A stretch of DNA of 64,000 nt, taken from NCBI GenBank assembly GCA_945271295.1, contig CALYPG010000007.1:1-64000 (forward strand), written 5' to 3'. The notes under the pieces are model-generated. The model was given only the letters and a program-made list of their open reading frames with translations. It was not told where the DNA came from and made no database searches. A program made the translations under genes and the position numbers. This document shows, one piece after another, positions 4,013-38,500 of the stretch. The stretch's first letter is position 1, and each line of letters begins with the position of its first letter. The stretch comes from an uncultured Gilliamella sp. (GTDB lineage: Bacteria > Pseudomonadota > Gammaproteobacteria > Enterobacterales > Orbaceae).

Positions 4013-4196
4013 GTTGGTACCTCTGTAATTTTTTTTTTACAACTAAACTAAATATTGCTTTACTATAAAGCATATTATGATAATTTTCTAGATTAAAAAA
4101 GAGAGCAAAGTGTAAATTATAAATTACATAGCTAAATTTTTAGATAGTTAAGCAACTATATCATTGGTTATCAAGTTGATAAGAAGTATAAACAGA

Positions 4197-4221
4197 TTTT
4201 GCTCACAAGTTGTGAGCAAAA
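4197..4221. repeat. Perfect inverted repeat between the paralogous binding-protein genes
   Basis: TTTTGCTCAC (4197-4206) and GTGAGCAAAA (4212-4221) form a 10-bp perfect stem with a 5-base loop. It lies about 50 bases after the stop codon of the upstream (minus-strand) binding-protein gene. On neither strand is the stem followed by a clear T-run, so it may be a terminator that uses the AT arm, an mRNA 3'-end stabiliser, or an operator for the next gene. Confidence 0.45.
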
Positions 4222-4271
4222 GAAATATCGATAAAAATACTATTATTGTTGGCTAAAACCAAGCGTTAACA

Positions 4272-5243
4272 TTATTGGTTAATAACTTTATAAGCCGATT
4301 GAATGACCTCAGGTGATAAAGTGACTCCTTGTTTTTTGGCGGCCTCAGTATTTAATACCAAACGTAATGTTTGCCCAATTTCTGGAACAATCTCTCCTGG
4401 TTTTTCGCCTTTCAATACCCGCACCACTAACTTACCTGATTGACGTCCCACATCATAGTAACTCATACCATAAGCGGCGACAGCACCGCGTTCAATTGCA
4501 TCAGGAAATGAGGCTAATAAAGGAATTTTATTTTCATTGGCAAATTTTACTAATGCTTCATAAGCAGAAACGACATTATTGTCAGTTGTCGTATAAATTA
4601 AATCCACTTTACCTTTTAGGGTATTTGCGGCAGTTGAAATATCCGCAGTACGTTGTGCCGGAACCGCAATAAGGGTAATATTTTGTTTAGCAAGTAGTAC
4701 TTGTAAGTTCTTTAACACAATAGTTGAGTTGATTTCACTAGGGCTGTAAATATAGCCTACTGATTTAACACCAGGAACGATTTTTTGCATAAATTCAATT
4801 TGTGGCCCTGTTTCTTGATAATCTGAAACACCAGTAATATTTGTTCCACTTGCTTCCCAATTTTTGATTAATTTAGCCGCCAGCGGGTCAGTAATTCCTG
4901 CAAAAACAATTGGAATTTGTTTTGTGGCTGCTGCAGTTGCTTGTGCACTTGGTGTTGCGATGGCGACAATTACATCTGGTTTGGCTGCAACAAATTGCCT
5001 GGCAATTTGGGCGGCGGTGGCACTACTACCTTGGGCGCTTTTGTATTGTACGTGCACATCATCATTTAATTTATAACCACTTTCTACTAATTCGTCTTTG
5101 ACGCCATCGCGGATTTGATCTAATGAAGGATGTTCAACAATTGCTGTAATCGCAACATTTTTTATAGAATCAGCCAGACTGAAAAAAGGTGTTAGTAATA
5201 ATATAACTATTAATAGCGTAATTCGTTTCATATTCACACTCAT
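4272..5243 (-). CDS. ABC substrate-binding protein 2 (ABC_sub_bind family)
   Basis: A 323-residue paralogue of the protein at 3035-4012. Long identical blocks (for example IYTTTDNNVVSAYEAL, and near-identical GMSYYD.GRQ.GK) show a local gene duplication. The signal peptide is clear whether translation starts at the first Met or at the second one four codons later (MKRITLLIVILLL). The second fits a typical signal peptide better and has a weak GAGTG before it, but no start has a strong Shine-Dalgarno. This is the first gene of the importer operon. Two binding proteins for one permease suggest either a higher dose of receptor or two related ligands sharing one channel. Confidence 0.85.
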   Translation of the reverse strand: MSVNMKRITLLIVILLLTPFFSLADSIKNVAITAIVEHPSLDQIRDGVKDELVESGYKLNDDVHVQYKSAQGSSATAAQIARQFVAAKPDVIVAIATPSAQATAAATKQIPIVFAGITDPLAAKLIKNWEASGTNITGVSDYQETGPQIEFMQKIVPGVKSVGYIYSPSEINSTIVLKNLQVLLAKQNITLIAVPAQRTADISTAANTLKGKVDLIYTTTDNNVVSAYEALVKFANENKIPLLASFPDAIERGAVAAYGMSYYDVGRQSGKLVVRVLKGEKPGEIVPEIGQTLRLVLNTEAAKKQGVTLSPEVIQSAYKVINQ

Positions 5244-5396: not shown

Positions 5397-5531
5397 TTAT
5401 ATTGCAGGTTCAAAAGCTAAGTGCGAATCGAGATGGTAAAAGGCTTCATAAGGTGTTTTAAAGCCAAGTCTTTTTTGTAGGTGATGATAATTTAACTTCA
5501 TAAATAATTGCTTTAAACGATTTATATTCTT
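5397..5531 (-). pseudogene. C-terminal remnant of a DDE (integrase-core) transposase
   Basis: Read on the minus strand this gives about 44 in-frame residues ending in a stop at 5397-5399, including the motif KRLGFKTPYEAFYHLDSH. The 'LN...KRLG(F/Y)KTP.E.F' pattern is the typical C-terminal end of IS30/IS3/IS481-type transposases. No start codon, N-terminal part or terminal inverted repeats are seen, and the frame runs straight into the 3' end of fdhE. It is therefore a leftover of an old insertion, not an active element. The IS family is uncertain, IS30 being my best guess. Confidence 0.6.
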
Positions 5532-6434
5532 TCAGGAAAAAACAAAAGGATTAATGCCACTTTTAACAAAACCTTCCTCTTCAGTTTTCATATCTAATAT
5601 AAGTGAAGCAATATCATCAGCAACAACTTCAATATGCGGGTCTTTGTCTTGATCTAAGATTTTCAAATAACCATGACAAGCTTCACAACATTCAGTTTTA
5701 ATCGCTGCTAGCTCATTCTCGAGTGAAAAATATTGGATATCTTGCATATTATCGCAACTGGTACATTTTACTCGGGGAACATACCATTCGCTTTCACATA
5801 AGCTACAATGTAGATAACGTAACCCACTGTTATTACCTAATTGAATTACACTGGCAACTGGCAGGCTATTACAAACAGGGCAAAACCAATGTTTATCTGT
5901 ATTTTCCGCAATTGCAGTACCTTTGATTTGACTCGCTAGTTGGCTGTAATAAACTGATAATGCACTCCAAATAAACAGTGATTCATTACCCGCGACTTGT
6001 TCAAATTTACCTGTTAGTAAAGATAAAGCCTTATCTTGTAATTGCTGTACACTATTTTGTTGCAGTTGTTCAATGGTTTGAGCAATTTCTGACGTAGTTT
6101 GAGCAAATGAAGTTAATAGTAATGTTAAATAATCTTGCCATATAGTCGTTAAAGGCAATGCATCTAAACTTAATGGTGGTTGATCTTTATGCAGCGCATC
6201 TGCTAAATCCATTTGGATCGGTTTAAGTTTGACTATATTAGCTTGCCCTTCAGCAATGGAAGCACAAAAATTTAAGTAATCACTCAATGGACTTTCTTTG
6301 GCTAAAGATTGTAAGCGCTTGGCTCTATGAATATAGAGGGTATTTGGCAAAGGATAAAATAATAATGGGATTTTTCTAACAATAGAATTGGTGGTTTGTT
6401 GTTCAAGTTGTTGTGGGATGATTTTTATGCTCAT
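5532..6434 (-). CDS. fdhE: Formate dehydrogenase accessory protein FdhE
   Basis: A cytoplasmic protein of 300 residues needed to obtain active membrane-bound formate dehydrogenase. It matches E. coli FdhE along its whole length. The C-terminal half carries the four metal-binding Cys pairs of a rubredoxin-like domain: CPVC (185/188), CSLC (210/213), CTSC (224/227) and CCEAC (249-253). It follows fdoI by 112 bases, with a strong terminator-like hairpin between them, so it may be expressed from readthrough or its own promoter. The order fdoG-fdoH-fdoI-fdhE is that of the E. coli fdo operon, which supports assigning the enzyme as FdoGHI instead of FdnGHI. Confidence 0.95.
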   Translation of the reverse strand: MSIKIIPQQLEQQTTNSIVRKIPLLFYPLPNTLYIHRAKRLQSLAKESPLSDYLNFCASIAEGQANIVKLKPIQMDLADALHKDQPPLSLDALPLTTIWQDYLTLLLTSFAQTTSEIAQTIEQLQQNSVQQLQDKALSLLTGKFEQVAGNESLFIWSALSVYYSQLASQIKGTAIAENTDKHWFCPVCNSLPVASVIQLGNNSGLRYLHCSLCESEWYVPRVKCTSCDNMQDIQYFSLENELAAIKTECCEACHGYLKILDQDKDPHIEVVADDIASLILDMKTEEEGFVKSGINPFVFS

Positions 6435-6491
6435 TTTAGCTTGCCATTATTAATTATTTTTTCCATAGATTGACCATCTATCAAAAATTAA

Positions 6492-6523
6492 TTAATTCCG
6501 CTGATAACCAACAGCGGAATTAA
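6492..6523 (-). terminator. Terminator or attenuator between fdoI and fdhE
   Basis: TTAATTCCGCTG (6492-6503) pairs perfectly with CAGCGGAATTAA (6512-6523) around an 8-base loop. On the minus strand the stem is followed by TTAATTTTTG. It starts 24 bases after the fdoI stop codon, making it the likely 3' end of most fdoGHI transcripts, with fdhE reached by partial readthrough. Confidence 0.65.
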
Positions 6524-6546
6524 CTATTGAAGTGTACCGCTTACTC

Positions 6547-7239
6547 CTAAGCTGGTTTGTGCTCTATTTCGGGTGACTCTGATTTTGTTTTTTCATTATT
6601 TTTTAATTCTTTTTGATAAACTTGTTTCATTTCTTGCTCATACCAAGCCGAGTGGTTTTTACGCGCCCATGCACGGGAAACATAACCAGTTATCATACCT
6701 TTAATTGAGCCTTTAACCCAAATAGCCATATAGGCATGACCAATAGCAAGTAAAATCAATCCAATGGCAGCTAACGAATGGAAAAATATAGCAATCCTAA
6801 CCACCTGAACTGGGAAATAATCTGAAACATACCGACGCCACATTATCATGCCAGTGACAAATAATACCGAGATTAATCCCATAATGCACCAGAATAAAAA
6901 CTTCTGTCCGATATTATATTTACCAATGGGAATGCCTTCTTCTTTACCCATAATCACTTTTTTAAAGTTCTTGAGCCACAAGATATCATCCTTATTAGGA
7001 ATATTGTGATGAGCGAGTTTTAAAAACATAAACATCAACATGACAAATACAATACAACCAATAATTGGATGTAGAGTCCGAACTAATTGTGGTGTACCTA
7101 ACACTAGCCCAAATAGTTTAATGGATGGAAAAAATAAAGATAAACCAGATAGTGCGGTTAAAATAAACAGGCAAACCATACACCAATGACAGAAACGTAC
7201 TATAAGCGGCGTTCTTAAAATCATGTTTTTCTTATTCAT
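6547..7239 (-). CDS. fdoI: Formate dehydrogenase cytochrome b556 subunit
   Basis: The membrane anchor and quinone-reducing gamma subunit, a four-helix di-haem cytochrome b. I place the start at the ATG at 7239 ([19 protein letters not shown]), because AGGAG lies about 8 bases upstream, at the end of fdoH; a longer frame reaches 7281 but without support. That gives 230 residues against about 211 in E. coli; the surplus is a charged C-terminal tail rich in Lys and Glu. Candidate haem ligands are His in RFCHW, RTLHP, FFHSLAA and GHAYMA. Electrons from the iron-sulfur subunit pass to the quinone pool here. It overlaps the fdoH stop by 8 bases. Confidence 0.92.
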
Positions 7240-8206
7240 GGCGGTTCTCCTGTTGCGATGAGCTGGTACTATTTTTGCCACCGAAAATAGGTAATCCTAA
7301 TCGTTGTCGCGCTTGCCTATCAGCTTCTTGTTCGTTTTCTATATCTTCGTCATCGACTTCAATCGCTCCGACTCCCATATAGTGAAACAGTAAACCAGCA
7401 AAGGTGGCGACAAATGTTGCGGCAGAAAGTGGTTTCCAAGCACCTTTCCAGAATTTAACGATTTCGCTAATCTGTGGATCTTTTGGTAAGCCGCGATAGA
7501 GTTCGGGTTGATCTGCATGGTGCAGTACATACATGACATGTGTTCCGCCAACGCCCTCAGGATTATAAAGTCCGGCATGTTCAAAACCACGTTTTTTTAA
7601 ATCTACAATGCGGTGTTCGGCGTGCCTAATCATATCTTGCTTAGTACCAAAATGAATAGCACCAGTAGGGCACGTTTTTACACAGGCTGGTTCTTGGCCG
7701 ACAGATACACGATCAACACATAATGTACATTTGTACGAGTGATTATCCTCTTTGCTTACACGAGGGATATTAAACGGACAACCAGCAATACAGTAACCAC
7801 AGCCAATACAGTGCTCAGACTGGAAATCGACAATACCATTAGCATATTGAATGATAGCGCCCTCAGATGGACATGCTTTTAAACAACCCGGATCGGCGCA
7901 GTGCATACAGCCATCTTTGCGAATAAGCCATTCAAATTTACCATTCACCTCGACTTCTGAGTAACGCATTACTGTCCAAGCTTTAGGTGCTAAATCGGCA
8001 GGGTTATCATAGACACCTACAGTATGACCGATTTCGGCTCGTAGATCGTTCCATTCACTACAGGCGACTTGACATGCTTTACAACCAATGCAGGTGGTAA
8101 CATCAATTAATTTAGCGACTTCTTGTTGATAATCTCGGGCACGCGGAGCAGGCGTTAACGAATTGGTTGCTGAGCGGCGAATAATATCTTGAGTTTGTAA
8201 TGACAT
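7232..8206 (-). CDS. fdoH: Formate dehydrogenase iron-sulfur subunit
   Basis: The beta subunit, carrying electrons from the molybdenum site through four [4Fe-4S] clusters to the cytochrome. Sixteen Cys are arranged in ferredoxin-like groups: [11 protein letters not shown] from residue 39, [24 protein letters not shown], and CTLC with CVKTC. One C-terminal membrane helix (around [18 protein letters not shown]) anchors it on the periplasmic face. The 324 residues exceed the roughly 300 of E. coli because of a polar, acidic tail after the helix. It lies 17 bases after fdoG and overlaps fdoI, so the three subunits are translationally linked. It has no signal peptide of its own and should be exported with FdoG. 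Confidence 0.95.
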
Positions 8207-8223
8207 AATTTAGTCTCCTCTTT

Positions 8224-11200
8224 TTATGCCGCGACAGTAACTTTTTCGATATTAACTAAGAATGATTTATATTCTGGAGTTTGAGAATTAGCATCACCTA
8301 AATGTGGTGTTAATTCATTCACCAAAAAACCTTTCTTAGTTTGCCCAGTGAATCCCCAGACAATAGGAATTCCAATGGTTTCGATCTCCCTGCCATCAAC
8401 AGTTAACGTTGGAAGTCGCTTGGTCACTACAGCTTTGGCCTTAATATAACCCCGATACGAGGTTACTTTTACCGTATCACCTAATTTAATACCTTTTTTC
8501 TTAGCCAGATTTTCGCTTAATTCAATAAATTGTTCGGGCTGAGTGATTGAAGCGAGTCTTGCATGCTGAGTCCAGAAATGGAAATGTTCGGTAATACTAT
8601 AAGTTGTACCAACATAAGGGAATTCATTGGCATTACCTAAACGTGCTAAATCTTCTTTAAAGGCTCTAGCTACAGGGCTATTAACCTGTTTTGGATGCAG
8701 TGGATTATTGGAAATTGGTGTCTCAAATGGTTCATAATGTTCAGGGAACGGCCCATCAACTAAACGGTTTAAACAGAATAAACCACCTAAACCATCATTA
8801 TTCATAATAAAGGCCCCCGCGCCCGAACTTGGCGGTAAAGTTGCAGTAAAATCAGCAACATCATTACCTTCCCAACTTGAACCATTCCATTTGATTAATA
8901 CGCGATTAGGATCCCATGGTTTGCCATTTTCATCAGCAGAAGCGCGATTATAAAGTACGCGCCGATTCATTGGCCAAGCCCAAGCCCAACCACTATGTAC
9001 CCCTTTACCTGAAGGGTCACTTGGATCACGTCTGGCCATTTGGTTGCCTTGTTCTGTCCAAGAACCACAGAATATCCAAATGCCTGAAGAAGTGGTACCA
9101 TCCGCTTTCAGTTGCGAAAAACCACTAAGTTGCTGACCTTTTTTGAGAATAATATTACCGTTGGCATCAGTAAGATCAGCGAGCGCTTTACCATTATAAT
9201 CTTTAGCCAGCTCTTCCGCAGCCGGTCCTTGCGGATCTTGATAATCCCAAACTAAATTATCAATCGGTTCATGATAAGTACCGCCTTCTTCAGCATATAG
9301 CTGTTTAATCCTTAGAAAGATGCGAGCAATAATTTCTGGATCGTATAAGGCATCATAGGGCGGTCTGGCGGCCGCCCAGTGCCATTGTAACCAACGAGAA
9401 GAGTTAACAATGGTGCCATTTTCTTCAGCAAAACAGTTAGCTGGGAGCCGGAATACTTCGGTTTGAATTTTGCTAGGATCAACATCATTTGATTCACCAT
9501 GATTTTGCCAAAACTCAGCAGTTTCGGTTGGCATAGGATCGATGTTAACCAAGAATTTTAAATTGGATAAGCCTTCACGGATACTATTTTTATCTGGCAG
9601 CGCGGCTAGAGGGTTGAAACCTTGACAAATAAAGCCATTGGCTTGACCATCACGCATCATTTTACTGAATCTTAAGATATCATAGGTCTTATCCCATTTC
9701 GGTAACCAATCAAATCCCCAATCATTATCCTTAGTGGCGTTATCACCAAACATGGATTTCATAAAACTAACAAAGAATTTTGGATAATTTCCCCAAAAAT
9801 TAACTTCGCTGGGGCCAAGTGGTTTAGGCGTTTTTTCCGCTAAATATTGTTCCAGTGAAACTTGCGAGTCTTTAGGTAAATCAAGATAAGCCGGTAAACG
9901 ATTGGATAACAACCCTACATCGGTTAAACCTTGAATGTTTGAATGTCCACGTAGCGCGTTAATACCACCACCCATTACCCCAATATTACCAAGTATTAAT
10001 TGAATCATCGCGGCGGTGCGAATAATCTGCGTACCATAAGTATGCTGTGTCCAACCTAATGCATATAAAAAAGTAGCGGCCCGGTCATTGGTTTTAGTAC
10101 TAGCCAGTGAGCGACAAACATGTAAAAAACTCTCGACAGGACTACCGGTGATCTTATTTACCATTGCTGGTGTATAGCGGCTCACATGTTGTTTCAGTAA
10201 GTTCCAAACACAGCGAGGATGATTAAGTGTCTTATCACGTAGCGCGTAACCCTGGTCATCTGTTTGATAGGCCCAGCTGGTTTGATCATATTGTCGATTA
10301 TTGGCATCATAGCCACTAAACAGCCCGCTACTAACATCAAAATTAAAGTCATCTCGCACAATCAAGCTTGCATTACTATGGGTGACTAAATATTCGAAAT
10401 TAACTTCATTATGTGTAATAAGGTAATTGATAACCCCCAGCAGAAATGTAATGTCAGATCCAGAACGGATTGGCACATAATGATCAGCAACTGATGCGGT
10501 ACGATGAAAGCGTGGGTCTATGGCAATTAGCTCGGCGCCATTAGTGATTTTGGCTTCTATCGCCCATTTAAAACCAACCGGATGCGCTTCAGCCGCATTC
10601 CCCCCCATAACGATAACTACATTGGCATTTTTAATATCGTTCCAGTTATTGGTCATGGCGCCACGACCAAAAGTTGCCGCTAAGCTCGATACCGATGGCC
10701 CATGACAGACCCTTGCTTGGGTTTCCAGACTTAACATGCCTAAAGAACGTGCAACTTTAAATGCTAACCAACCCGTTTCATTACTGGCAGCAGAAGTAAC
10801 CAACCACCCCGTTGTGGTCCAACGATTAACCGTAGTGCCTTTTTCATTTTTCTCAACAAAATTTTTATCACGATCGGCTTTCATTAATCTAGCGATACGA
10901 TCGATAGCTTCTTCCCAACTAATACGTTGCCATTTATCTGAGCCCGGTGCACGGTATTGCGGATATTTAACGCGATTTTCACTCTTGATATAATCGAGAA
11001 CACCAGCGCCTTTAGGGCAAAGAGAACCACGGCTGACGGGATGATCAGGATCACCTTCAATATGAAAAATAGAGGATTCGGCATTTTTGGCGCCATCTCC
11101 GCGACTATAAAGAAGCATGCCACAACCAACAGAACAATAGGTGCAGTTGTTACGAGTTTCTTTTGATTTTAACAATTTATATTGGCGAGTTTGTGCAAGG

Positions 11201-29160: not shown

Positions 29161-29616
29161 TTATATGCCCATTTGTTTTTCACGTAGTTCAGCCAGTGTT
29201 TTACAATCAATACATAAATCAGCCGTTGGTCTTGCTTCTAAACGGCGAATACCAATTTCTACACCACAAGACTCGCAAAAACCAAAATCATCTGTTTCAA
29301 TTTTCTTTAACGTTTTTTCGATTTTCTTAATGAGTTTACGTTCTCTATCTCGAGCACGAAGTTCTAAACTGAACTCTTCTTCTTGTGTCGCCCGGTCAGC
29401 AGGATCTGGAAAGTTTGCCGCCTCATCTTGCATATGAGAAACAGTTTTACCCATTTCACCTTGTAGTTGAGCTAACCATGCTTCTAAAATTAGTTTAAAA
29501 TGTTTCAATTGCTTAGGATTCATATACTCCTCATCTTTAGCCTCTTTGTAAGGCTCCAGCCCCGCAATTGAAAGTAGGCTTAGAGAAGATGTATTTACTT
29601 TTTGTTCCTTTTTCAC
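29161..29616 (-). CDS. dksA: RNA polymerase-binding transcription factor DksA
   Basis: Works with ppGpp on RNA polymerase through its secondary channel to control rRNA and amino acid operons. I use the GTG at 29616 because AAGGGGG lies 7-8 bases upstream and the product is then exactly 151 residues, as in E. coli; an ATG seven codons upstream would contain that Shine-Dalgarno. Coiled-coil tip aspartates lie in [14 protein letters not shown], and the four-Cys zinc finger is CESC...CIDC near 114-138. A sigma70-type promoter is visible at 29656-29683. Confidence 0.97.
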
Positions 29617-29655
29617 AGCAATCCCCCTTAAGTACATATTATTTTTAGGGGGTAA

Positions 29656-29683
29656 ACTATAGCAATAAATTGGCTATTGGCAA
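29656..29683 (-). promoter_or_regulatory. dksA promoter (sigma70 type)
   Basis: On the minus strand TTGCCA (29683-29678) and TATAGT (29661-29656) are separated by 16 bases, about 40 bases upstream of the GTG start codon. The predicted transcript begins near 29650, within CCCCCT, which can pair with the AGGGGG of the dksA Shine-Dalgarno. Confidence 0.55.
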
Positions 29684-29753
29684 ATTTTTTTTGTGTTTTT
29701 TTTCACTATAAAAAATGTAAATGTTCACAACTCTATGTTATTAATCAATATAA

Positions 29754-30239
29754 TTATTTGTTCCATCTTATCAATCCATTCCTTTCACAATTAGCGACTA
29801 AATCGGATAATTTTTGATTATTGGGTAATACAAGCGTTGGAGCAATATCAAATAAAGGATAGAGAACAAACTCTCTAAATTGCATATGATAATGTGGAAT
29901 TGTAAGTCTTTCACTATCAATAACCAAATCATCATACAGTAAAATATCGAGATCTAGGGTTCTAGCTCCCCAACGATTATCTTTACGCACTCGTCCCTGT
30001 GATTGTTCTATTGCCTGTAGCTGATCAAGCAATTCTATTGGGGATAAAGTGGTATTAATTTTAATTACTGCATTTAGATAATCATTTTGGTCTTGGGGAC
30101 CAAGCGGTTTGCTGCGGTAAAAGGGTGAAACATCAATAACTTTACTTTGTGGTAACTGTTGCAAAGCCATAATGGCTTGATTAGCTTGAGCAAATGGGTC
30201 TTCCAAATTGCTACCTAAAGCGATATAACAAATTGACAT
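29754..30239 (-). CDS. folK: HPPK, 6-hydroxymethyl-7,8-dihydropterin pyrophosphokinase
   Basis: Transfers pyrophosphate from ATP to 6-hydroxymethyl-dihydropterin in folate synthesis. I use ATG 30239 (MSICYIALGSNLEDP), which matches the E. coli N-terminus; a TTG at 30266 would add nine residues. The 161 residues include the HPPK signatures FYRSKPLGPQDQNDYLNAV near 42-60 and RWGARTLDLDILLYDD near 83-98, the latter with the Mg2+-binding Asp pair. Usually folK follows pcnB downstream of dksA-gluQ; here it is upstream of dksA and pcnB is missing. Confidence 0.95.
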   Translation of the reverse strand: MSICYIALGSNLEDPFAQANQAIMALQQLPQSKVIDVSPFYRSKPLGPQDQNDYLNAVIKINTTLSPIELLDQLQAIEQSQGRVRKDNRWGARTLDLDILLYDDLVIDSERLTIPHYHMQFREFVLYPLFDIAPTLVLPNNQKLSDLVANCERNGLIRWNK

Positions 30240-30451
30240 AATGCTATTTAACTTTTTATGGATCAAATGTAATCGGATGTCGATATTTTAACATATAAAA
30301 TAATAGCAAAAAATCGCTATATATTGGTTCACGGTTATGCCTTCACGTTATTAAAATATAACTAGACAATCTTTAACTTATTACTGTTTATGCGTTATGG
30401 TAACGTAAATCAGTTGGTTTTGTGGTGATGTACTTATTTTGAGATTTTAAA

Positions 30452-31810
30452 ATGAATTTAGCTCAACAATTGAGTTTTTTGATAGCAAATACACCAGTAA
30501 TTAATGATCCTAACGTGATTGATCGTGCAATTAATGGTGTGATTGATTATTTGGCTAGTAGTTTACAAGCACGCAATGAAGTTGATATTCACAAGCTGTT
30601 AGCTTGGATAGAGGATGAAGGTGGCACAGCAAAGGTGTGGTTAGTTGGTCAAAAAAAGTTAGTTACCGCTCGGCAAGCCGCACTCTTTAATGGCTTTCAA
30701 GCGCATTATTTAGATTACGATGATGTACATTCAGATGTACGCGGTCACCCCTCAGCAGTAATCTTATCGGCGTTAATTGCCAGTATTCGGCTTGATAAGC
30801 GGATAGCTAATATTGATAGCAAAAGGTTTTTAACTGCTTATATTATTGGCATTGAAGTTATGGCATTGTTAGGCCAAAGTGTCAACCCAAAGCATTATGA
30901 AAAAGGTTGGCACGCAACCATGACTTTAGGTGGAATGGCGGCAACTGCGGCAATTTGCTATCTTCATGATGAACCATTTTTATCACAAGCTTTAACATTA
31001 GCCGCGACGCAAGCATCAGGAATGCGTTTGCTTATGGGCACTGCGATTAAATTCTTACATGCGGGACTTGCGGCACAAAGTGCCATACAGTCTGTTGAAT
31101 GGTTGAGAGTGGGGATCGATGCTGATAAAGATTTTTTAGATGATAAGCTGGGTTTTTTAGCGATTTATGGGGAGGGAAATACACGTTTAAATTTAGAGAA
31201 TTGGGGGCGACCATGGAAAATTGTAGATCCCGGTTTATGGTTTAAAACTTATTCTTATTGTTCCGCTGCTGCTTATATTGCCGATGCGGGTCAATTACTT
31301 TATCAACATGCTAAGTTTGATATTAATAAAATTGAACATATCACCATTTTTTTTGCACCACCAAAAAGTGATGCGGCGTTGATCTATAAAACGCCATTAT
31401 TAGCTGACCAAGGGCGATTTTCGGCAGAATATATTCTTGCTTTAACCTTATTGGGAATACCACTTAATTTTCAGCAGTTTACTCCAATGCCGATTGCTGA
31501 TCAGATTCAAAGATTAATGCAAAAAATGCAACGTAGCTATCAAATACAACTACCTCCTCATCCGGAAAGTTATAATCAACGTTATGTGGTGGTAGAAATA
31601 TTGTTCAGTAGTGGTGAAAAACTTAGTCAACGAATTGATTTTCCGAAAGGTTCTCCGAAAAATCCATATAGTCAAAATGAAATGTGGTTAAAGTTGTTCA
31701 CCGCTATTGGTGATCGGCAACAGACCGAAAAATTAATAACGGATATTCGTAAATTGGCAATAGGAACTGATGTTTATCAATTTTTATCATCATATGCATT
31801 TACGCTCTAA
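30452..31810 (+). CDS. MmgE/PrpD-family protein (probable epimerase/racemase)
   Basis: A 452-residue member of the MmgE/PrpD fold, which includes 2-methylcitrate dehydratase, iminodisuccinate epimerase and Bacillus YxeQ. Family blocks seen: NGFQAHYLDYDDVHSDVRGHPSAV near residues 88-111 (quoted in part), KHYEKGWHATMTLGGMAA near 149-166, and FKTYSYCSAAAY near 262-273, where PrpD has its Lys-x-Cys-type block. No prpB/prpC methylcitrate genes accompany it. Instead it faces, tail to tail at 55 bases, a lyase-GNAT-ABC importer operon. That company points to an epimerase of a succinyl-amino acid adduct rather than propionate metabolism. Family firm, reaction inferred. Confidence 0.85.
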   Translation: MNLAQQLSFLIANTPVINDPNVIDRAINGVIDYLASSLQARNEVDIHKLLAWIEDEGGTAKVWLVGQKKLVTARQAALFNGFQAHYLDYDDVHSDVRGHPSAVILSALIASIRLDKRIANIDSKRFLTAYIIGIEVMALLGQSVNPKHYEKGWHATMTLGGMAATAAICYLHDEPFLSQALTLAATQASGMRLLMGTAIKFLHAGLAAQSAIQSVEWLRVGIDADKDFLDDKLGFLAIYGEGNTRLNLENWGRPWKIVDPGLWFKTYSYCSAAAYIADAGQLLYQHAKFDINKIEHITIFFAPPKSDAALIYKTPLLADQGRFSAEYILALTLLGIPLNFQQFTPMPIADQIQRLMQKMQRSYQIQLPPHPESYNQRYVVVEILFSSGEKLSQRIDFPKGSPKNPYSQNEMWLKLFTAIGDRQQTEKLITDIRKLAIGTDVYQFLSSYAFTL

Positions 31811-31865
31811 TGTTGATTTATTGTTAATGAATATTAATTTTTTTCAACCTAAATATCTCCGTCAA

Positions 31866-32618
31866 TTAAATTTCGAAGTCAATTTCATCCGTTAGTTGGC
31901 GTAAAAAACGCTGTGTAACTTCATTTTGAGGGTTATCAATAAGTGATTTTGCCTCGCCTTCTTCAACAATTACGCCATTGGCCATAAAAATGATGCGATC
32001 GGCAACATATTTTGCAAATTCCATTTCATGGGTGACAATAATCATGGTGATTTTTTCTTTTGCTAATTGCAACATGACTTGCAATACTTCATGTACACGT
32101 TCAGGGTCTAGTGCTGAGGTTGGTTCATCAAACAGTAATACTTTCGGCCTAACCGCGAGTGCTCTTGCAATAGCAACTCGTTGTTGTTGACCTCCCGATA
32201 ATGTGATTGGGTATTGGTCAGCATAGGGTAACATTCCAACTCGTTTCAGTAATGATAACCCTAGCTGTTTTGCTTCTAGCTTATCCATGTTTTGCCCAAC
32301 AATTAAAGGGAAAGTGATATTTTGCAAAGCAGTTTTATTTTTAAATAAATTATAGTGTTGAAACACCATTGCCGATTGCCTACGCAAATTAACTTCGTCT
32401 TTATTACTATAGTGTTCACAATTAAGTGATATTGCACCAATGCGAATTTGACCGGTATTAGGTTTTTCTAATAAATTTAAACAACGTAACAACGTTGATT
32501 TTCCAGAACCTGATGGGCCAATAATTGCAATAACTTCACCTTGTTTAATATTTAAGTTTATTTCCTTTAAAACTTCATTATCTGCAAATCGCTTGGATAA
32601 ATGTGAAACAGTAATCAT
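31866..32618 (-). CDS. Amino acid ABC transporter ATPase (TcyN/YxeO-like)
   Basis: A 250-residue ATPase of the polar amino acid uptake family. Walker A is GPSGSGKST near residues 34-42, the Q-loop MVFQHYNLF near 84, the signature LSGGQQQR near 141 and Walker B VLLFDEPTSALD near 161, followed by the switch His in VTHEM. It resembles TcyN, GlnQ and Bacillus YxeO. It is the last gene of a minus-strand operon with the permease 10 bases upstream. The C-terminus is slightly longer than in GlnQ (LTDEIDFEI). Confidence 0.92.
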   Translation of the reverse strand: MITVSHLSKRFADNEVLKEINLNIKQGEVIAIIGPSGSGKSTLLRCLNLLEKPNTGQIRIGAISLNCEHYSNKDEVNLRRQSAMVFQHYNLFKNKTALQNITFPLIVGQNMDKLEAKQLGLSLLKRVGMLPYADQYPITLSGGQQQRVAIARALAVRPKVLLFDEPTSALDPERVHEVLQVMLQLAKEKITMIIVTHEMEFAKYVADRIIFMANGVIVEEGEAKSLIDNPQNEVTQRFLRQLTDEIDFEI

Positions 32619-32628
32619 TGCCTTTTCC

Positions 32629-33300
32629 TTAACGATGATAGGGTTTACTGAACTTTTGTTCTAATTGTTTTTGTATCCAGGAGTAAACTACAACGGTAAG
32701 CCAGTAAACAATACCAACAGCTAAATAGGTTTCAAAGTAGAGAAACGAATCTACAGTTAACATCTTTCCAGCGGCTAATAGTTCTTGAACACCTACATAA
32801 AAAGCGACAGAGGAATCTTTCAGTAATGAAATAAACATATTACCTGTGTTGGGTAGTGCATTAATCATCGCCTGTGGCAATATAATGCCTCGATAGACCT
32901 GTATTATATTAAGTCCGGAAGTTAGCCCTGCTTCTTTTTGGCCTGGGTCGACGGAAGCTAAACCTGCGCGGAAAATTTCCGCTAAATAGGCTGAATATTT
33001 TAAGCTGAAACAGATAATGGCTGCGGTTGTTGCGCCCATATGTTTCAAAGCAGGGAAAATTGGTGGTAAGCCGTAATAAATAATAAACAGCAAAACTACT
33101 GAGGGTATGCCTCGAAATAGTGAAATAAAGAGCGCAAAAACAGGATCGATAATTTTGATTTTATTGTTACGCAAAAGTGCAATAGCTAATCCCAATATAA
33201 TAGCAAATATGATCGATATTACGGCAATAAGTAGTGTGACCGGCAGATAAGGTAATATCTGCGGGAACACATTAAAAAAATAGTTTATGTTAAACTTCAT
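32629..33300 (-). CDS. Amino acid ABC transporter permease (TcyL/YxeN-like)
   Basis: A 223-residue inner-membrane permease of the HisM/GlnP type with about five membrane segments (the first near residues 15-38). The EAA loop contacting the ATPase is KEAGLTSGLNIIQVYRGIILPQA near 140-162. FRGIPSVVLLFIIYYGLP near 62-79 is the conserved second block. The start codon overlaps the stop of the lipoprotein gene by 4 bases (ATGA), so the two are translationally coupled. Being the only permease, it should act as a homodimer. Confidence 0.92.
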   Translation of the reverse strand: MKFNINYFFNVFPQILPYLPVTLLIAVISIIFAIILGLAIALLRNNKIKIIDPVFALFISLFRGIPSVVLLFIIYYGLPPIFPALKHMGATTAAIICFSLKYSAYLAEIFRAGLASVDPGQKEAGLTSGLNIIQVYRGIILPQAMINALPNTGNMFISLLKDSSVAFYVGVQELLAAGKMLTVDSFLYFETYLAVGIVYWLTVVVYSWIQKQLEQKFSKPYHR

Positions 33301-34079
33301 GAGGTAATATCTTCACCAAAATATTTGATTGAAATTGTTTTTAGTGTGCCATTAGCACGTAATTTTTCGAGTACTTGATTGAATTTTTCTCGTAATGCTT
33401 GACCGTTTTCATCTTTACTAAATGGGAAAGCGACGTCTTCTATAGTTATTGGCTCGCCAACAAGTTTAAATGGTAAATTTTTGCGTTTTATTTCGGCAAG
33501 CAAAATTGGTTTGGAGTTAACATAACCATCAACTCGTTTATACTCAGTATCATACATTGCACCATCTCGTGTTTCATAAGTTTTGATAGTGATCTCATTA
33601 TTTGGGAAGACTTTTTTCAAATTATTAATATGATTTGAACCTAGCACGCCAGCAATGGTCTTACCTTGCAAATCAGTCAACGTTTGGATATCTTTATTAT
33701 CTTTATGAGTGACAATCTGACTACCATAAAAACTATATGCGGTAGAAAAGTCATATTTCTCCTGACGAGATGGTGTAACTGCCACTGCATTTGCCACCGT
33801 ATCTAAGCGGCCCGAATCAAATTGCCCCATTAATCCGCTAAATTCAGCAATGACCCATTCAACTTTATAATCTAATTCTTTGGCAATCGCCTCAGTTACT
33901 TCAATATCAAAACCAACCAACTTGCCATCTTGTTTATAACCATTAGGATAACTTTGTCCGGTTGAGCCAACTTTAATCACATGTTGTGCTATAGCTTGTT
34001 TATCAGATTTATTATCACAACCAACTAAAGTTAAGCTGGTTAATAACACAGCAAAAAGCAAAATTTTTATTTTATTCAT
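33297..34079 (-). CDS. Amino acid ABC transporter binding lipoprotein (TcyJ/YxeM-like)
   Basis: A 260-residue extracytoplasmic binding protein with a lipoprotein signal: hydrophobic core to residue 20 and lipobox LVGC with Cys21. The mature part begins the SBP_bac_3 fold with KVGSTGQSYPNGYKQ, then GKLVGFDIEVTEAIAKEL and ANAVAVTPSRQEKYDFS, the blocks that bind the amino acid alpha groups. It most resembles cystine-type receptors and Bacillus YxeM, from memory. It is the receptor of the importer whose permease and ATPase follow directly. Ligand inferred from the neighbouring enzymes to be a dicarboxylic amino acid adduct such as S-(2-succino)cysteine. Confidence 0.9.
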   Translation of the reverse strand: MNKIKILLFAVLLTSLTLVGCDNKSDKQAIAQHVIKVGSTGQSYPNGYKQDGKLVGFDIEVTEAIAKELDYKVEWVIAEFSGLMGQFDSGRLDTVANAVAVTPSRQEKYDFSTAYSFYGSQIVTHKDNKDIQTLTDLQGKTIAGVLGSNHINNLKKVFPNNEITIKTYETRDGAMYDTEYKRVDGYVNSKPILLAEIKRKNLPFKLVGEPITIEDVAFPFSKDENGQALREKFNQVLEKLRANGTLKTISIKYFGEDITS

Positions 34080-34600
34080 TATTTCTTACTCCTATTTTTC
34101 CATTCGGTATAAGTTTGGGTATTCAATATTTTTTCAAAATAGAGCGTGGTATGATCATCGGTTAAATCTGCTTGGCCTATTTGCTTAAACCCTTTTTTTA
34201 TATAAGCATCTGCAAGCCAAGGATGATTTGCGGCAGTGCCTAATGTTACCGCGGGTAATTTTAGTTGTTTGATGAGGATTTGCTGTTCAACCCAATCCCA
34301 TAATTGATTACCATAACCTTGGCCTTTGTAATTTGGATCGGTAGCAAACCAACCTAAATGTGGTACGCCATACGGGCCTGGATTATTTCCCCATGGGAAA
34401 CGAATACTTAATGTTGAAACAAGCTTGTCTTTTGCTTCTAGTACATAAACGGCGTTTGATGCAATATGCTGATGAATCTGTTTTTGCTTCGCCGTTGCAG
34501 CAGCAAAATGAATTCCCAATTTACTCACCGATTGATACGCACTATGTAGCAGCTTTTGATATGCTGTTATTTCCTCAAGAGTAATTAGACGAAATATCAT
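34079..34600 (-). CDS. GNAT-family N-acetyltransferase (YxeL-like context)
   Basis: A 173-residue acetyltransferase of the GNAT fold. The acetyl-CoA pyrophosphate loop is seen in DPNYKGQGYGNQLWDWV near residues 99-115 (Q/R-x-x-G-x-G pattern), followed by beta5 AVTLGTAANHPWLADAYIKKGF near 130-151 and the final strand TTLYFEK. Its start overlaps the lyase stop by ATGA and its stop shares a base with the lipoprotein start, so all three are coupled. In the Bacillus yxe pathway an acetyltransferase protects the amino group of S-(2-succino)cysteine; here the acceptor is unknown but likely the same substrate or the released amino acid. Confidence 0.82.
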   Translation of the reverse strand: MIFRLITLEEITAYQKLLHSAYQSVSKLGIHFAAATAKQKQIHQHIASNAVYVLEAKDKLVSTLSIRFPWGNNPGPYGVPHLGWFATDPNYKGQGYGNQLWDWVEQQILIKQLKLPAVTLGTAANHPWLADAYIKKGFKQIGQADLTDDHTTLYFEKILNTQTYTEWKNRSKK

Positions 34601-35958
34601 GCTAATACTCCACTTTGATCAGCGAAATCGATGACTTGTTGTACCTTTTCTGGCGCTGATCCTAGATAATTAATAGGATTTAACCAATTATCTAGCTCAG
34701 ACTCAGTAAACTCTTTATTCAAGATCGGATCATCTAATAACACAGCTTTGAACTTTTTATTTTGTTCAAAAGCTTTCATTGCACTTGCATAAACAAGTTT
34801 GTGTGCGGTTTGTTTGCCTAAGCGTTTTCCTATCTCAAACATGACTTTTTCTGATAAAAGTAAACCGTTTTGTAAAGCTAAATTAGCTAGCATTTGCTCA
34901 GCATTCACTTTTAACCCTTTTAGTACCGCTAATGCAGTTTGTAATTGTGCTGAGATGTAAAGATTAATTTCAGGAAGTGCTATCCATTCTGCGCGCCAGC
35001 TCATGGCATCACGTTCATGTTCAACTTTCATTGATTCATGGATTAATGCCACACTTTTTAATAAAGGTGCGGTTAAACTAGCTAGACCTTCTAATGCCGC
35101 AGGGTTGCGTTTATGAGGCATGGTGGTGGAACCTATCTTTCCTTGTGAAAAAGGTTCTTCAACTTCATTAATTTCAGTGCGCATTAAGTTATAAAATTCA
35201 TTGCCAATTTTACCGAGTGAACCACTAATTAAAGCTATAACTGATGCATATTCAGAAAAGCGATCACGCGCGGCTTGCCAACCAATATTGGGGGTATTTA
35301 ACCCAAGTAATGTCAATGCTCGCTCTTCGACTTTCGGACCTAATTGACCAATGGATGCATAGGTACAAATTGCACCACTAATATTACCCACCAGTACCCG
35401 CTGTTTTATTTCCGATAAACGTTGTAAATGGCGAATAAATTCATCTAACCAAACAGCCAGTTTAAAGCCAAACGTGGTGGGTAGGGCTTGCATACCATGT
35501 GTACGGCCAACCATGGGTAAGAATTGATATTGTTTTGCTAAGCGTTTTAATTCAAGGGCGACCAGCTTCGTATCTCGTTCGATGATGGCAAAAGATGCTT
35601 TTACTTGTAATACAGTTGCGGTATCAACAATATCTTGCGTGGTGGCACCATAATGAATAAATTGCCCAGCCTGACCGACTTGTGCTTGTAGCGCATTGAT
35701 TGTTGACATTAAAGAGTGTTTAGCTTGAGCTGCCTCATTGGCAATTTGTTCAATCGATAGTTTGGAAGCATCGGCTTTTTCTATAATTAATCTGGCCTTT
35801 TCAGCTGGAATAACGCCAAATTCACCTTCTGCTTGTGCTAGTGCCACCTCAACTTCAACTTGTTTGGCTAAACGGTTTTGCTCTGACCAAATTGCACGCA
35901 TTTCACTGGTGCTAAAATTGTTACCTAAAATTAAAAAATCAATAATGTGTGACGCCAC
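34597..35958 (-). CDS. Fumarase/aspartase-superfamily lyase (possible S-(2-succino) lyase)
   Basis: A lyase of about 453 residues related to PcaB and PurB. GTG 35958 is preferred because AAGGA lies 7 bases upstream; an ATG at 35976 (six codons more) has none. The catalytic signature loop is GSTTMPHKRNP at 276-286, retaining the Ser and Lys expected to act on the fumarate moiety; HYGATTQDIVDTA (about 102-114) and GRTHGMQALP (about 151-160) are the other active-site regions. It is not housekeeping PurB, by divergence and context. First gene of an operon with GNAT and a cystine-type importer. Fumarate release from a succinyl adduct is the inferred reaction; 3-carboxymuconate cycloisomerase activity is unlikely without other pca genes. 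Confidence 0.85.
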   Translation of the reverse strand: MASHIIDFLILGNNFSTSEMRAIWSEQNRLAKQVEVEVALAQAEGEFGVIPAEKARLIIEKADASKLSIEQIANEAAQAKHSLMSTINALQAQVGQAGQFIHYGATTQDIVDTATVLQVKASFAIIERDTKLVALELKRLAKQYQFLPMVGRTHGMQALPTTFGFKLAVWLDEFIRHLQRLSEIKQRVLVGNISGAICTYASIGQLGPKVEERALTLLGLNTPNIGWQAARDRFSEYASVIALISGSLGKIGNEFYNLMRTEINEVEEPFSQGKIGSTTMPHKRNPAALEGLASLTAPLLKSVALIHESMKVEHERDAMSWRAEWIALPEINLYISAQLQTALAVLKGLKVNAEQMLANLALQNGLLLSEKVMFEIGKRLGKQTAHKLVYASAMKAFEQNKKFKAVLLDDPILNKEFTESELDNWLNPINYLGSAPEKVQQVIDFADQSGVLA

Positions 35959-36347
35959 TGAATTATCCTTAATCATTATTTTTTAGTTAATTAATTATTA
36001 ATAATAAATGTAGTAACGTCTAATAATCAGTTTGTATATTGTTATAATTAAATGGAATAACAACCAATACAAAAGGGGGGGAATTATTGTCATTAAGCAA
36101 TAAGTTAGAAGTGACAGACCGGTTATTAATACTGTGATAAATAATTGCAATTAGGGTTTGGGAGCGACTTTATTAATGTCAATAAATACTGGCCAACAAC
36201 AAATAATTCATTATGATAGCCAGTAATGAAAGGTTAACGTATTTAATTATTAATTCTAAACAATGTTATTAACATAATCATATAATTGGATTGATCAATA
36301 TCAAAGGTTTGATGAAAAGATTAATTTTATCAAACCCAATAAGTATT
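35959..36347. other. Intergenic gap between aspC and the lyase operon
   Basis: 389 bases holding the lyase-operon promoter (on the minus strand near 35980-36050, not resolved) and the aspC 3' end. On the plus strand a run of seven G (36075-36081) precedes a TTG frame of 16 codons, 36087-36137, reading as L/MSLSNKLEVTDRLLIL, then a stop; this may be a chance frame or the decayed start of a lost gene. A hairpin at 36306-36336 lies near aspC. Confidence 0.35.
36306..36336 (-). terminator. Candidate terminator of aspC
   Basis: GGTTTGAT (36306-36313) pairs with ATCAAACC (36329-36336) and can be extended through an A/T run with one bulge. On the minus strand it begins 12 bases after the aspC stop and is followed by TTTGATATTG. 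Confidence 0.45.
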
Positions 36348-37523
36348 TTATAAAACCTCAACAATGGATTCACATAGTCTCGACATATTATCAAGTGTCA
36401 TTCCCGCTACATTGATACGTCCAGAATTAACAATGTAAATACCATAATCATTGCGTAATTTTAGAACTTGTTCTTCGCTTAAACCACTAAAGGAAAACAT
36501 GCCATTTTGTTTAGCTATAAAACTGAAATCTTGGTTCGCCCCTTTTTCTTGCAAGGTTTTAACAAACAATTGGCGCATACGGTGAATTCGTTGACGCATT
36601 CCTGTTAATTCATCGATCCACTCTTCTTTTAATTCTGGTGAATTTAAAATATAAGAAACAATTTTTGCACCATGTGCAGGTGGGTTTGAGTAATTAGCTC
36701 GGATAATGGTTTTTACTTGGCTAAAAGCACGATCGGCAATATCCGTGTTTGCTGCAATTAAGGTGAAAGCCCCGACTCGTTCATTGTAAAGCCCAAAGTT
36801 CTTGGAGTATGAACTAGCAATTAACAACTCTGGTTGAGAGTTAGCAAATAATCTTAAGCCAAAAATATCTTCTTCCAAACCTTGTCCTAGTCCTTGATAA
36901 GCTAAATCAAATAAAGGTAACCAACCTTTTTTTAATGCTAAGTCAGAGATTAATTGCCATTGTTCTGGTGTGGGATCTATACCGGTTGGATTATGGCAGC
37001 AACCATGGAATAACACCGCCTCACCAGCAGAAACTAAACTTAAATCATTCATCATGGCATCAAAGTCAAGATTATGAGTTTGTGCATTGTAATAGTGATA
37101 TTCTCGAACCTCGAGCCCTGCGGTTTGAAACACACTGCGATGATTTGGCCAAGTTGGATTACTCACCCAAATACGCTTAACTTTAGTTCTTCGAGACAAG
37201 AAATCTGCCATAATTCGTAATGCACCTGTTCCACCTGGCGCTTGCGCGGTTCTTGCTCTATCATTATCTTCACCAAATAATAGCGTTTGAGTGGCGCAAT
37301 TAAAGACGCTTACACCATCAATTGGCAAGTAGCTTTTTGTGGTTTCATCACCAAGCAAAAAGTGTTCGGCTTTTTTAACGCTTTCTAAAATAGGTGTTTG
37401 GGTCGTTTCGTCTTTATAAACCCCAACGCTTAGATTAATTTTATTGGTGCGTTCATCTTTATTATAAAGATCCGCTAGCCCGAGGATTGGATCAGCCGGA
37501 GCGGCAGTTAGATTTTCAAACAT
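36348..37523 (-). CDS. aspC: Aspartate aminotransferase
   Basis: A PLP enzyme interconverting aspartate/2-oxoglutarate and oxaloacetate/glutamate. The 391 residues begin [19 protein letters not shown], as E. coli AspC ([19 protein letters not shown]), and stay closer to AspC than to TyrB throughout. The PLP lysine is in [15 protein letters not shown], the phosphate-binding pieces are PGGTGALR and CCHNPTG, and the substrate Arg is in SGRINVAG. Gene order places it after syd on the minus strand with a 117-base gap. Its presence near the lyase operon may be chance, although fumarate and aspartate are linked metabolites. Confidence 0.95.
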
Positions 37524-37640
37524 AATTCACCTATTTCATTTTATTACTTTAAAAGCATTATATACTCATTATTTTACAAGATACAATGTTGATAGCAGAG
37601 CCATTAATAAGGTTAATATCAATATATTTATCTGTTAAAT

Positions 37641-38180
37641 TTAGTTACTAGCAAATGTGATAAGTTGGCTTAGAAATGAGGTTAAATTATTAGTTAATAT
37701 GGTTAACTCTCCGGTAATAAGGTCCTCTTTTACCACTTCACCTGTAAGATTATTTAATGCAACTATTTCACTATCTTCATCAGTTGATGCAATAAAAATA
37801 GTGGGTATTCGTTTTAGTTTTTTTTGTTGGGATAAATGAGCAATTATATTCTGTTCTAAATTGCAAAAATCCTCATCATTCCAAGCTTGAATTAAAACTA
37901 AATTAATATCGGCAAACTTGGTCTTCATATTACCTGCATATTGCGTACCATAAAAAACATGAGCACTGGGGTGGAGGGTAATATTTAATACTTGTTCGGC
38001 GATTTTAAGATTTCTCGGTGGCGCTAATAAAAAAGGCTGCCATAAAACTGTTAATTGTTCCGTTTTTAAGATGCACGGTGAAGGTATAGCATGTAACTCT
38101 TCACTTCGGGGGGCATGTTCAAATTGATTACACCAGCGAGTGGAAAAATCAATGAGTGCTAATTGATCCGGTAACGTCAT
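37641..38180 (-). CDS. syd: SecY-interacting protein Syd
   Basis: A 179-residue cytoplasmic protein that binds SecY and is thought to monitor SecYEG assembly. It aligns with E. coli Syd (181 aa) from end to end: SEELHAIPSPCIL near residues 22-34, LHPSAHVFYGTQYAGNM near 69-85, LVLIQAWNDEDF near 93-104, and RIPTIFIASTDEDSEIVALNNLTGEVVKEDL near 123-153 (too long to quote in full, key part FIASTDEDSEI). An electronegative surface region that contacts SecY cannot be judged here. It stands alone between aspC and the long gap before rne. Confidence 0.92.
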   Translation of the reverse strand: MTLPDQLALIDFSTRWCNQFEHAPRSEELHAIPSPCILKTEQLTVLWQPFLLAPPRNLKIAEQVLNITLHPSAHVFYGTQYAGNMKTKFADINLVLIQAWNDEDFCNLEQNIIAHLSQQKKLKRIPTIFIASTDEDSEIVALNNLTGEVVKEDLITGELTILTNNLTSFLSQLITFASN

Positions 38181-38500
38181 AGACAGATTTTATCTCTTTT
38201 TTGATAGCTTTGTTCATCTCCATTATACTGATAAACCATTAATATGCACTATGCTATCAAGAGTCTTTTTATTTGAGGATATAAAGTAAGGTATCGAACA
38301 TCAATTTGTAAAAATGTTTCAGGTTAACTATATGTTTAAGTATAAATGCCGCTAAAATAAAATTATTTTTTTATAAGTAATTAATAGAATTGATAAAAGA
38401 AAAAAATAATTCCTAACTGTTTATAAAATTGTAAGTTTAATTTGCTTGCTATCCTTAGCTGAAACGTTAATAATATGACTGGGTAGTTTTACCCTTGTAA
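38181..38500. other. First part of the 0.75-kb gap between syd and rne
   Basis: AT-rich sequence with the syd promoter at its left end. No open frame is convincing. A short dyad, GGGTA/TTACCC near 38481-38494, is present but lacks a T-run. Confidence 0.3.

Follow-up and report, generated by a model that had tools for sequence, protein, structure and literature searches.

Gene content of the locus

We analysed a window of 64,000 nucleotides (positions 1 to 64,000 of contig CALYPG010000007.1, assembly GCA_945271295.1) from the 2.8 Mb genome of an uncultured Gilliamella sp., the nearest named relatives of which at the locus under study are Gilliamella, bee-gut Orbaceae. Six genes at positions 30452–35958 very likely form a yxe/scm locus of the type with an S-(2-succino) lyase (2SL) and serve to salvage S-(2-succino)cysteine (2SC), which forms when cysteine reacts with fumarate. 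A preliminary description of this DNA had claimed six genes here; all are present, matching that description to the base, and each family name is backed by Pfam:

30452..31810, plus strand: MmgE/PrpD protein, YxeQ-like (PF03972, 140.9 bits; PF19305, 53.2 bits)
31866..32618, minus strand: ATPase of a polar-amino-acid ATP-binding cassette (ABC) importer, YxeO-like by position (PF00005), its place being conserved across loci
32629..33300, minus strand: ABC importer permease, YxeN-like by position (PF00528)
33297..34079, minus strand: ABC importer substrate-binding lipoprotein, YxeM-like by position (PF00497)
34079..34600, minus strand: GNAT N-acetyltransferase, YxeL-like by position (PF13673, PF00583 and PF13508, all above cut-off)
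34597..35958, minus strand: predicted 2SL of the fumarase/aspartase superfamily, with a GTG start (PF00206, 153.3 bits; PF10397, 66.6 bits)

The junctions, read from the sequence, are likewise as described beforehand: the lyase and GNAT genes, and those for the binding protein and the permease, share ATGA overlaps, the permease and ATPase genes are separated by a 10-base gap, and the MmgE/PrpD and ATPase genes converge with their ends 55 bases apart. Additionally, the GNAT and binding-protein genes meet in a one-base TAATG overlap. Although the longest open reading frame for the lyase begins at ATG 35976, the GTG at 35958 that had been proposed is the better start, because AAGGA precedes it, a 75%-identical protein (L052) has an ATG at this position and a same-genus gene (L079) has a stop codon upstream. 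A broken-lyase reading for two relatives (G034 and G291) was rejected, since their stops sit upstream of the likely start.

The arrangement is not due to chance, given that 19 named Gilliamella loci were fetched and 18 of them show the same five-gene operon and convergent MmgE/PrpD gene (the lyase of one of these, L139, is cut by a contig end); the nineteenth, L150, is broken. Decaying copies were seen in Gilliamella sp. Lep-s35 (L150/L076; genome G028), where the lyase is in three pieces and the permease match is shortened, and at L054 (G291), where the MmgE/PrpD match is split over two frames.

Relation to the published 2SC pathway

Hillmann et al. (2022; PMC9706529) reported that in some yxe loci a lyase-class-I protein, 2SL, replaces the monooxygenase YxeK, and that two 2SL genes complement a Bacillus subtilis yxeK mutant on 2SC. 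The 2SL enzymes tested there, from Dickeya dadantii and Enterococcus italicus, convert N-acetyl-2SC to fumarate and N-acetylcysteine with efficiencies ~60-fold and ~320-fold higher, respectively, than those for 2SC. In the same source, YxeL is the acetyltransferase, YxeP the deacetylase and YxeMNO the importer, YxeQ is given as of 'unknown function', and a yxe/scm locus is defined by the clustering of at least three of five components. The locus in the window has three of the five clustered, namely, a YxeL-type GNAT, a YxeMNO-type importer and a YxeQ-type MmgE/PrpD protein; YxeP, which the definition does not require, is not in the cluster. These components were called from their families and from the matching gene order of complete loci (e.g. 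L055/L134 of Thorsellia), the only B. subtilis protein compared directly being that of structure 7BRA, which we infer to be YxeQ (see below).

The preliminary description had proposed the import of 2SC and a fumarate-releasing lyase with an MmgE/PrpD partner. Sequence relationships and gene content, together with the published 2SL pathway, support this outline, although two of its details require revision. The GNAT had been left unexplained, whereas the published lyase variant N-acetylates 2SC first; because the known lyases are far more efficient on N-acetyl-2SC, the GNAT of the window should do likewise. Cysteine had been named as the direct lyase product, whereas the published variant yields N-acetylcysteine together with fumarate, and we found no support for aspartate, the other product suggested. 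The epimerisation step also put forward there is a sound proposal. In the route that we propose, the ABC importer would bring in 2SC, the GNAT would N-acetylate it and the lyase would split N-acetyl-2SC into fumarate and N-acetylcysteine (other workers having demonstrated acetylation and cleavage with homologues). The acetyl group would then be taken off by an M20 amidohydrolase from elsewhere in the genome to give cysteine, and the MmgE/PrpD protein would epimerise the succinyl carbon, such that both diastereomers of the adduct become usable by a lyase that takes one. The pathway type has been known since 2022; the newer point is the candidate role for the MmgE/PrpD protein.

A survey of genome neighbourhoods, which the preliminary description had advised, bears out the association of these genes. 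Named genomes were scanned for the lyase, which gave 126 confirmed relatives; the best 80 were fetched with flanks of up to 7 kb, some of which end at contig ends. At 69 of the 80 loci, the lyase is at least 55% identical to that of the window, and at the remaining 11 the identity is 41–46%. The GNAT gene lies directly downstream of the lyase in all 69, and genes for the binding protein, permease and ATPase are all present on the same strand in 58; within the fetched flanks, an M20 gene occurs at 47 loci, an MmgE/PrpD gene at 42 and both at 21, with neither only at L150. The window lyase is 73–76% identical to lyases of Dickeya, Pectobacterium and Brenneria; in D. oryzae and D. undicola (73%), the cluster runs lyase, GNAT, binding protein, permease, ATPase, M20. 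For the 11 distant lyases, no GNAT, importer, M20 or MmgE/PrpD neighbours were found in the fetched flanks. The locus is, in sum, conserved and probably a functional 2SL-type system for 2SC salvage.

The 11 of the 69 loci without a full importer comprise L150, which lies near a contig end, and ten enterobacterial loci with weaker, opposite-strand ATPase and permease matches. The latter are lyase-GNAT-M20-MmgE clusters (L126–L128, L130, L132, L133, L135–L137 and L143), of which L137 is also without M20.

A candidate role for the MmgE/PrpD protein

Among 60 genomes, that of the window included, 29 have the lyase, and 27 of these also match the MmgE/PrpD protein. No genome has MmgE/PrpD without the lyase, and the two lyase-only cases are G028, where the lyase is in pieces, and G050, where it is a 32% homologue. 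Because the two genes are neighbours, their co-loss could be a single event. Across 394 genomes of the order, 25 encode a lyase of at least 67% identity and 25 a YxeQ-like protein, taken as a match at E ≤ 1e-30 to that of Thorsellia, with 23 genomes encoding both; the lyase-only genomes are G028 and G291, and the MmgE match of the latter consists of two pieces in different frames.

Genomes in which the two genes are unlinked provide a stronger test of the association. At 26 loci, the lyase cluster has an M20 gene and no MmgE gene; in all 26 genomes, an MmgE match lies elsewhere at E ≤ 1e-10, and in 25 of them at E ≤ 1e-60, the match in the remaining genome (G673) being only 30% identical. Two of these 25 (G671 and G672) match ~300 of 447 residues, and a stop falls inside the aligned stretch in G667, G678 and G671. 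The 26 cases are far from independent, because they are concentrated in a few related genera (Pectobacterium 11, Brenneria 5, Symbiopectobacterium 3, Pantoea 3, Dickeya 2, Samsonia 1, unnamed 1), and their relatives without the lyase are covered only by the order sample. In three genomes, from Dickeya, Pectobacterium and Pantoea, no other pathway gene was matched around the unlinked MmgE gene within the 12 kb fetched. Pantoea piersonii, besides its lyase cluster, has a solitary YxeQ-like gene (L166) that is divergent to a gene for an NtaA/DmoA-family flavin monooxygenase close to YtnJ, the pair lying at 3607–4908 (−) and 5412–6713 (+).

The order to which Lysinibacillus belongs was also sampled: among 250 of its genomes, seven encode a protein resembling 7BRA at E ≤ 1e-60. 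All seven genes lie beside M20 and ABC genes, and six also have 2SL and GNAT neighbours, although the presence of the cluster was known beforehand for G403, the centre genome, and for G405. Given this synteny, and the length of YxeQ, which we take to be 445 residues, 7BRA is probably YxeQ; no near-identical copy of it was found among the 250 genomes, the best being 50% identical. A further Bacillota locus, L174 (G485; 6739–10662), has MmgE, M20 and ABC genes with no lyase or GNAT match at 1e-6, and may be a remnant or another variant of the locus.

When a thiol adds to fumarate without an enzyme, as in the formation of 2SC, both configurations would be expected at the newly formed stereocentre; fumarase-superfamily enzymes, by contrast, are stereospecific. 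Within the MmgE/PrpD family, iminodisuccinate (IDS) epimerase acts on a succinyl carbon and is paired with a C–N lyase. The window protein is most likely an epimerase of 2SC or N-acetyl-2SC, and it is quite possible, if short of probable, that YxeQ-type proteins generally are such epimerases, recycling the diastereomer that 2SL does not accept; an epimerase is needed in this proposal because chemical succination gives two diastereomers, of which the lyase would take one. The window protein is 28% identical to IDS epimerase and 42% to 7BRA, and its H99 and Y149 align with H99 and Y145 of the former. These are the two proposed bases of IDS epimerase; both are conserved in 7BRA, and the Tyr is absent in mammalian IRG1 (PMC7347537). 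The His/Tyr pair is kept in all 53 aligned YxeQ-like rows, a few of which are the same gene fetched twice.

Several observations count against an epimerase. The Tyr is also present in six of ten other MmgE/PrpD paralogues, so the pair does not prove epimerisation; two genomes of the order (G262 and G288) have a YxeQ-like protein without the lyase; and the main text of PMC9706529 does not state that 2SL accepts a single diastereomer, containing no stereo-, diastereomer, epimer- or chiral term. In the literature searched, from which subscription papers were mostly absent, no paper assigning an epimerase role to YxeQ was found; PMC10863075, which came up for '2-succino' with epimerase, concerns another enzyme. 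At L056 (G203; 7468–10082), a 43%-identical lyase is directly followed by a distant MmgE/PrpD gene in which His replaces the Tyr, possibly representing a different succinyl-adduct pair.

An unlikely alternative is a function outside 2SC breakdown, with the MmgE/PrpD protein acting as a cis-aconitate decarboxylase or as a dehydratase of the 2-methylcitrate type. Indeed, 7BRA, its closest solved relative, was published as a cis-aconitate decarboxylase; the assignment, however, came from structure and docking, a substrate complex was not obtained and activity is absent from the relevant passages (PMC7347537). The same source notes that 7BRA lacks H277 and Y318 of human IRG1. In an alignment with the mouse chain 7BR9, the window protein has C270 where the mammalian enzymes have H277 and L310 where they have Y318/Y319; of the 53 YxeQ-like rows, all have Cys at the H277 column and none has Tyr at the Y319 column. 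Moreover, MmgE/PrpD accompanies the lyase in both linked and unlinked genomes, albeit related ones. Were the epimerase proposal true, the B. subtilis 'IRG1' structure would be that of a damage-repair epimerase rather than of an itaconate-forming decarboxylase, and the locus offers a candidate function for YxeQ, listed as unknown in PMC9706529.

Importer, deacetylase and substrate

All three importer subunits resemble cystine systems, yet score below the NCBIfam cut-offs for a cystine ABC importer: the ATPase is TcyN-like (307.5 versus 406 bits), the permease cystine-permease-like (155.1 versus 300 bits) and the binding lipoprotein cystine-binding-protein-like (141.1 versus 312 bits). We predict that the importer takes up 2SC.

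With fumarate and N-acetylcysteine as the lyase products, a deacetylase is needed. It tells against a complete pathway at the locus that a PF01546 search found no M20 deacetylase there or on its contig, the eight matches in the genome all lying elsewhere; nor was there an M20 match in the fetched flanks of any of 21 Orbaceae loci. The earlier statement that no YxeP deacetylase is present, therefore, holds for the locus, but a plausible candidate is encoded elsewhere in the genome. This is L035 (C2:36078), which shares 49% identity with the M20 protein of the Dickeya cluster; L032 and L033 are 38% and 37% identical to that protein, and 41% and 40% to their best cluster M20, whereas L034 and L036 are of the DapE and ArgE types and L037–L039 are more distant. 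The branches of the M20 proteins from this genome were too long to place in a tree, so the candidates were judged by identity alone. B. subtilis has three redundant N-acetylcysteine deacetylases, within a set sharing 35–50% identity (PMC12757645), and in light of this redundancy a deacetylase away from the locus would not be odd. Plausibly, then, an M20 gene elsewhere in the genome supplies the activity in trans.

There is a small chance that the operon acts not on 2SC, but on a related N- or S-succinyl adduct, such as iminodisuccinate or another succinated small thiol, given that 2SL enzymes accept several small thiols (PMC9706529) and that IDS epimerase is a member of the MmgE/PrpD family. 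However, the gene content fits a 2SC locus in every enzymatic role except the deacetylase, a cystine system is among the nearest models of the importer, and acetylation, together with the M20 gene in related loci, suits an amino-acid substrate.

Identity of the lyase

The phylogeny that the preliminary description had recommended groups the window lyase with those of the Dickeya congeners and of other clusters, separately from PurB and PcaB. A quick tree of 57 rows has 34 cluster lyases (33 loci and the window) on one side of a branch with SH-aLRT 94, just below the tool's mark of 95; on the other side are 15 further relatives (five from the order, and 10 of the 11 distant lyases), three PcaB, four PurB and 3C8T. 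The genome also encodes PurB and ArgH proteins of its own, besides the window lyase. A PcaB identity was rejected, both scores being under cut-off (383.3 versus 595 and 263.8 versus 355.75 bits) and the proteins separate in the tree. Some points speak against a 2SL: in addition to the value just quoted, some of the outside rows are very long, the D. dadantii lyase is represented by congeners and that of E. italicus by no stand-in, and the window lyase exceeds the TIGR00928 purB cut-off (379.1 versus 326.2 bits).

The last of these points, and the public annotation as purB adenylosuccinate lyase of four ~70%-identical 2SL-type copies on Pantoea plasmids (H1–H4), would suit a second adenylosuccinate lyase (PurB), but this is very improbable, as the genome already encodes an E. 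coli-type PurB (783 bits), the tree places the window lyase on a separate branch from true PurB, the genes beside it encode a GNAT and an amino-acid importer, and the lyase gene, found in 26 of 34 same-genus genomes (one copy broken), is unmatched in the other eight, one of them only 74% complete. The cut-off itself cannot tell 2SL from PurB, because 2SLs encoded beside true PurB genes also pass it: in three Gram-positive genomes, the 2SL scores 374–386 bits and the true PurB 591–599 bits. The Dickeya cluster lyase passes too. Caution is thus warranted with public records in which relatives of this lyase carry the purB name.

Upstream element and flanking genes

Two further features lie upstream of the operon:

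36041..36060, minus strand: conserved upstream element, TTATTCCNNTTNGTTATANC, with one mismatch; a possible regulator site
36348–37523: aromatic-amino-acid-transaminase-type gene

With at most two mismatches, TTATTCCNNTTNGTTATANC is found upstream of the lyase in all 20 Orbaceae loci considered (L081–L096, L103, L114, L129 and L150), comprising 18 from Gilliamella and those of Zophobihabitans and Orbaceae ESL0721, and at up to three mismatches it is absent upstream in all 48 other loci; L139, which begins at a contig end, was left out of this count of 69 loci. The Gilliamella matches arise partly by construction, because the pattern was derived from 16 of them and the window; Zophobihabitans and ESL0721 were not used in deriving it. 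Shuffled windows gave a mean of 1.83 matches at up to three mismatches. In Gilliamella, the element is followed by a conserved ACAAAC-GATTATTAGACG block. Control by CysB, for which the consensus is very weak (PMC11329422), found no support: the promoter regions of E. coli cysK, cysP, cysJ and cysD are without the element, and the lone match, at three mismatches, lies inside ligA. Rfam gave no match at the gathering score in 29500–38500, and scans for promoters and terminators yielded no more than expected by chance.

The two genes downstream of the locus were assigned by eye as putative folK and dksA. Among the same-genus loci L064–L080, 14 are not cut by a contig end, and in each of these the flanking genes occupy the same positions; the flanks differ in other Orbaceae loci (L054, L059 and L060).

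Comparison with known systems

The locus suggests that fumarate-damaged cysteine may serve as a sulfur source for bee-gut Gilliamella. Our literature searches found no paper linking 2SC to Gilliamella and, on sulfur auxotrophy, none naming Gilliamella among the matches listed.

The closest parallel is the 2SL-type locus of D. dadantii and E. italicus, with which the Gilliamella locus shares the lyase (grouping with those of the Dickeya congeners), the GNAT and the three-part amino-acid importer; it differs in being without an M20 deacetylase. The MmgE/PrpD gene, a feature of yxe loci in general, is convergent in Gilliamella, absent from the clusters of the two Dickeya congeners and co-directional in Pasteurellaceae and Bacillota loci. 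With the B. subtilis yxe (scm) operon, the locus has in common the YxeL-, YxeMNO- and YxeQ-type genes, but it carries a 2SL instead of the monooxygenase YxeK and no YxeP. The MmgE/PrpD protein itself has two informative relatives. IDS epimerase (2HP0/2HP3) belongs to the same family, has the conserved His99/Tyr145 pair and epimerises a succinyl carbon, although it is the more distant in sequence and its substrate is an N-linked disuccinyl compound. B. subtilis 'IRG1' (7BRA, 7E9D) is the closest solved structure, but was published, on structural and docking grounds, as a cis-aconitate decarboxylase.

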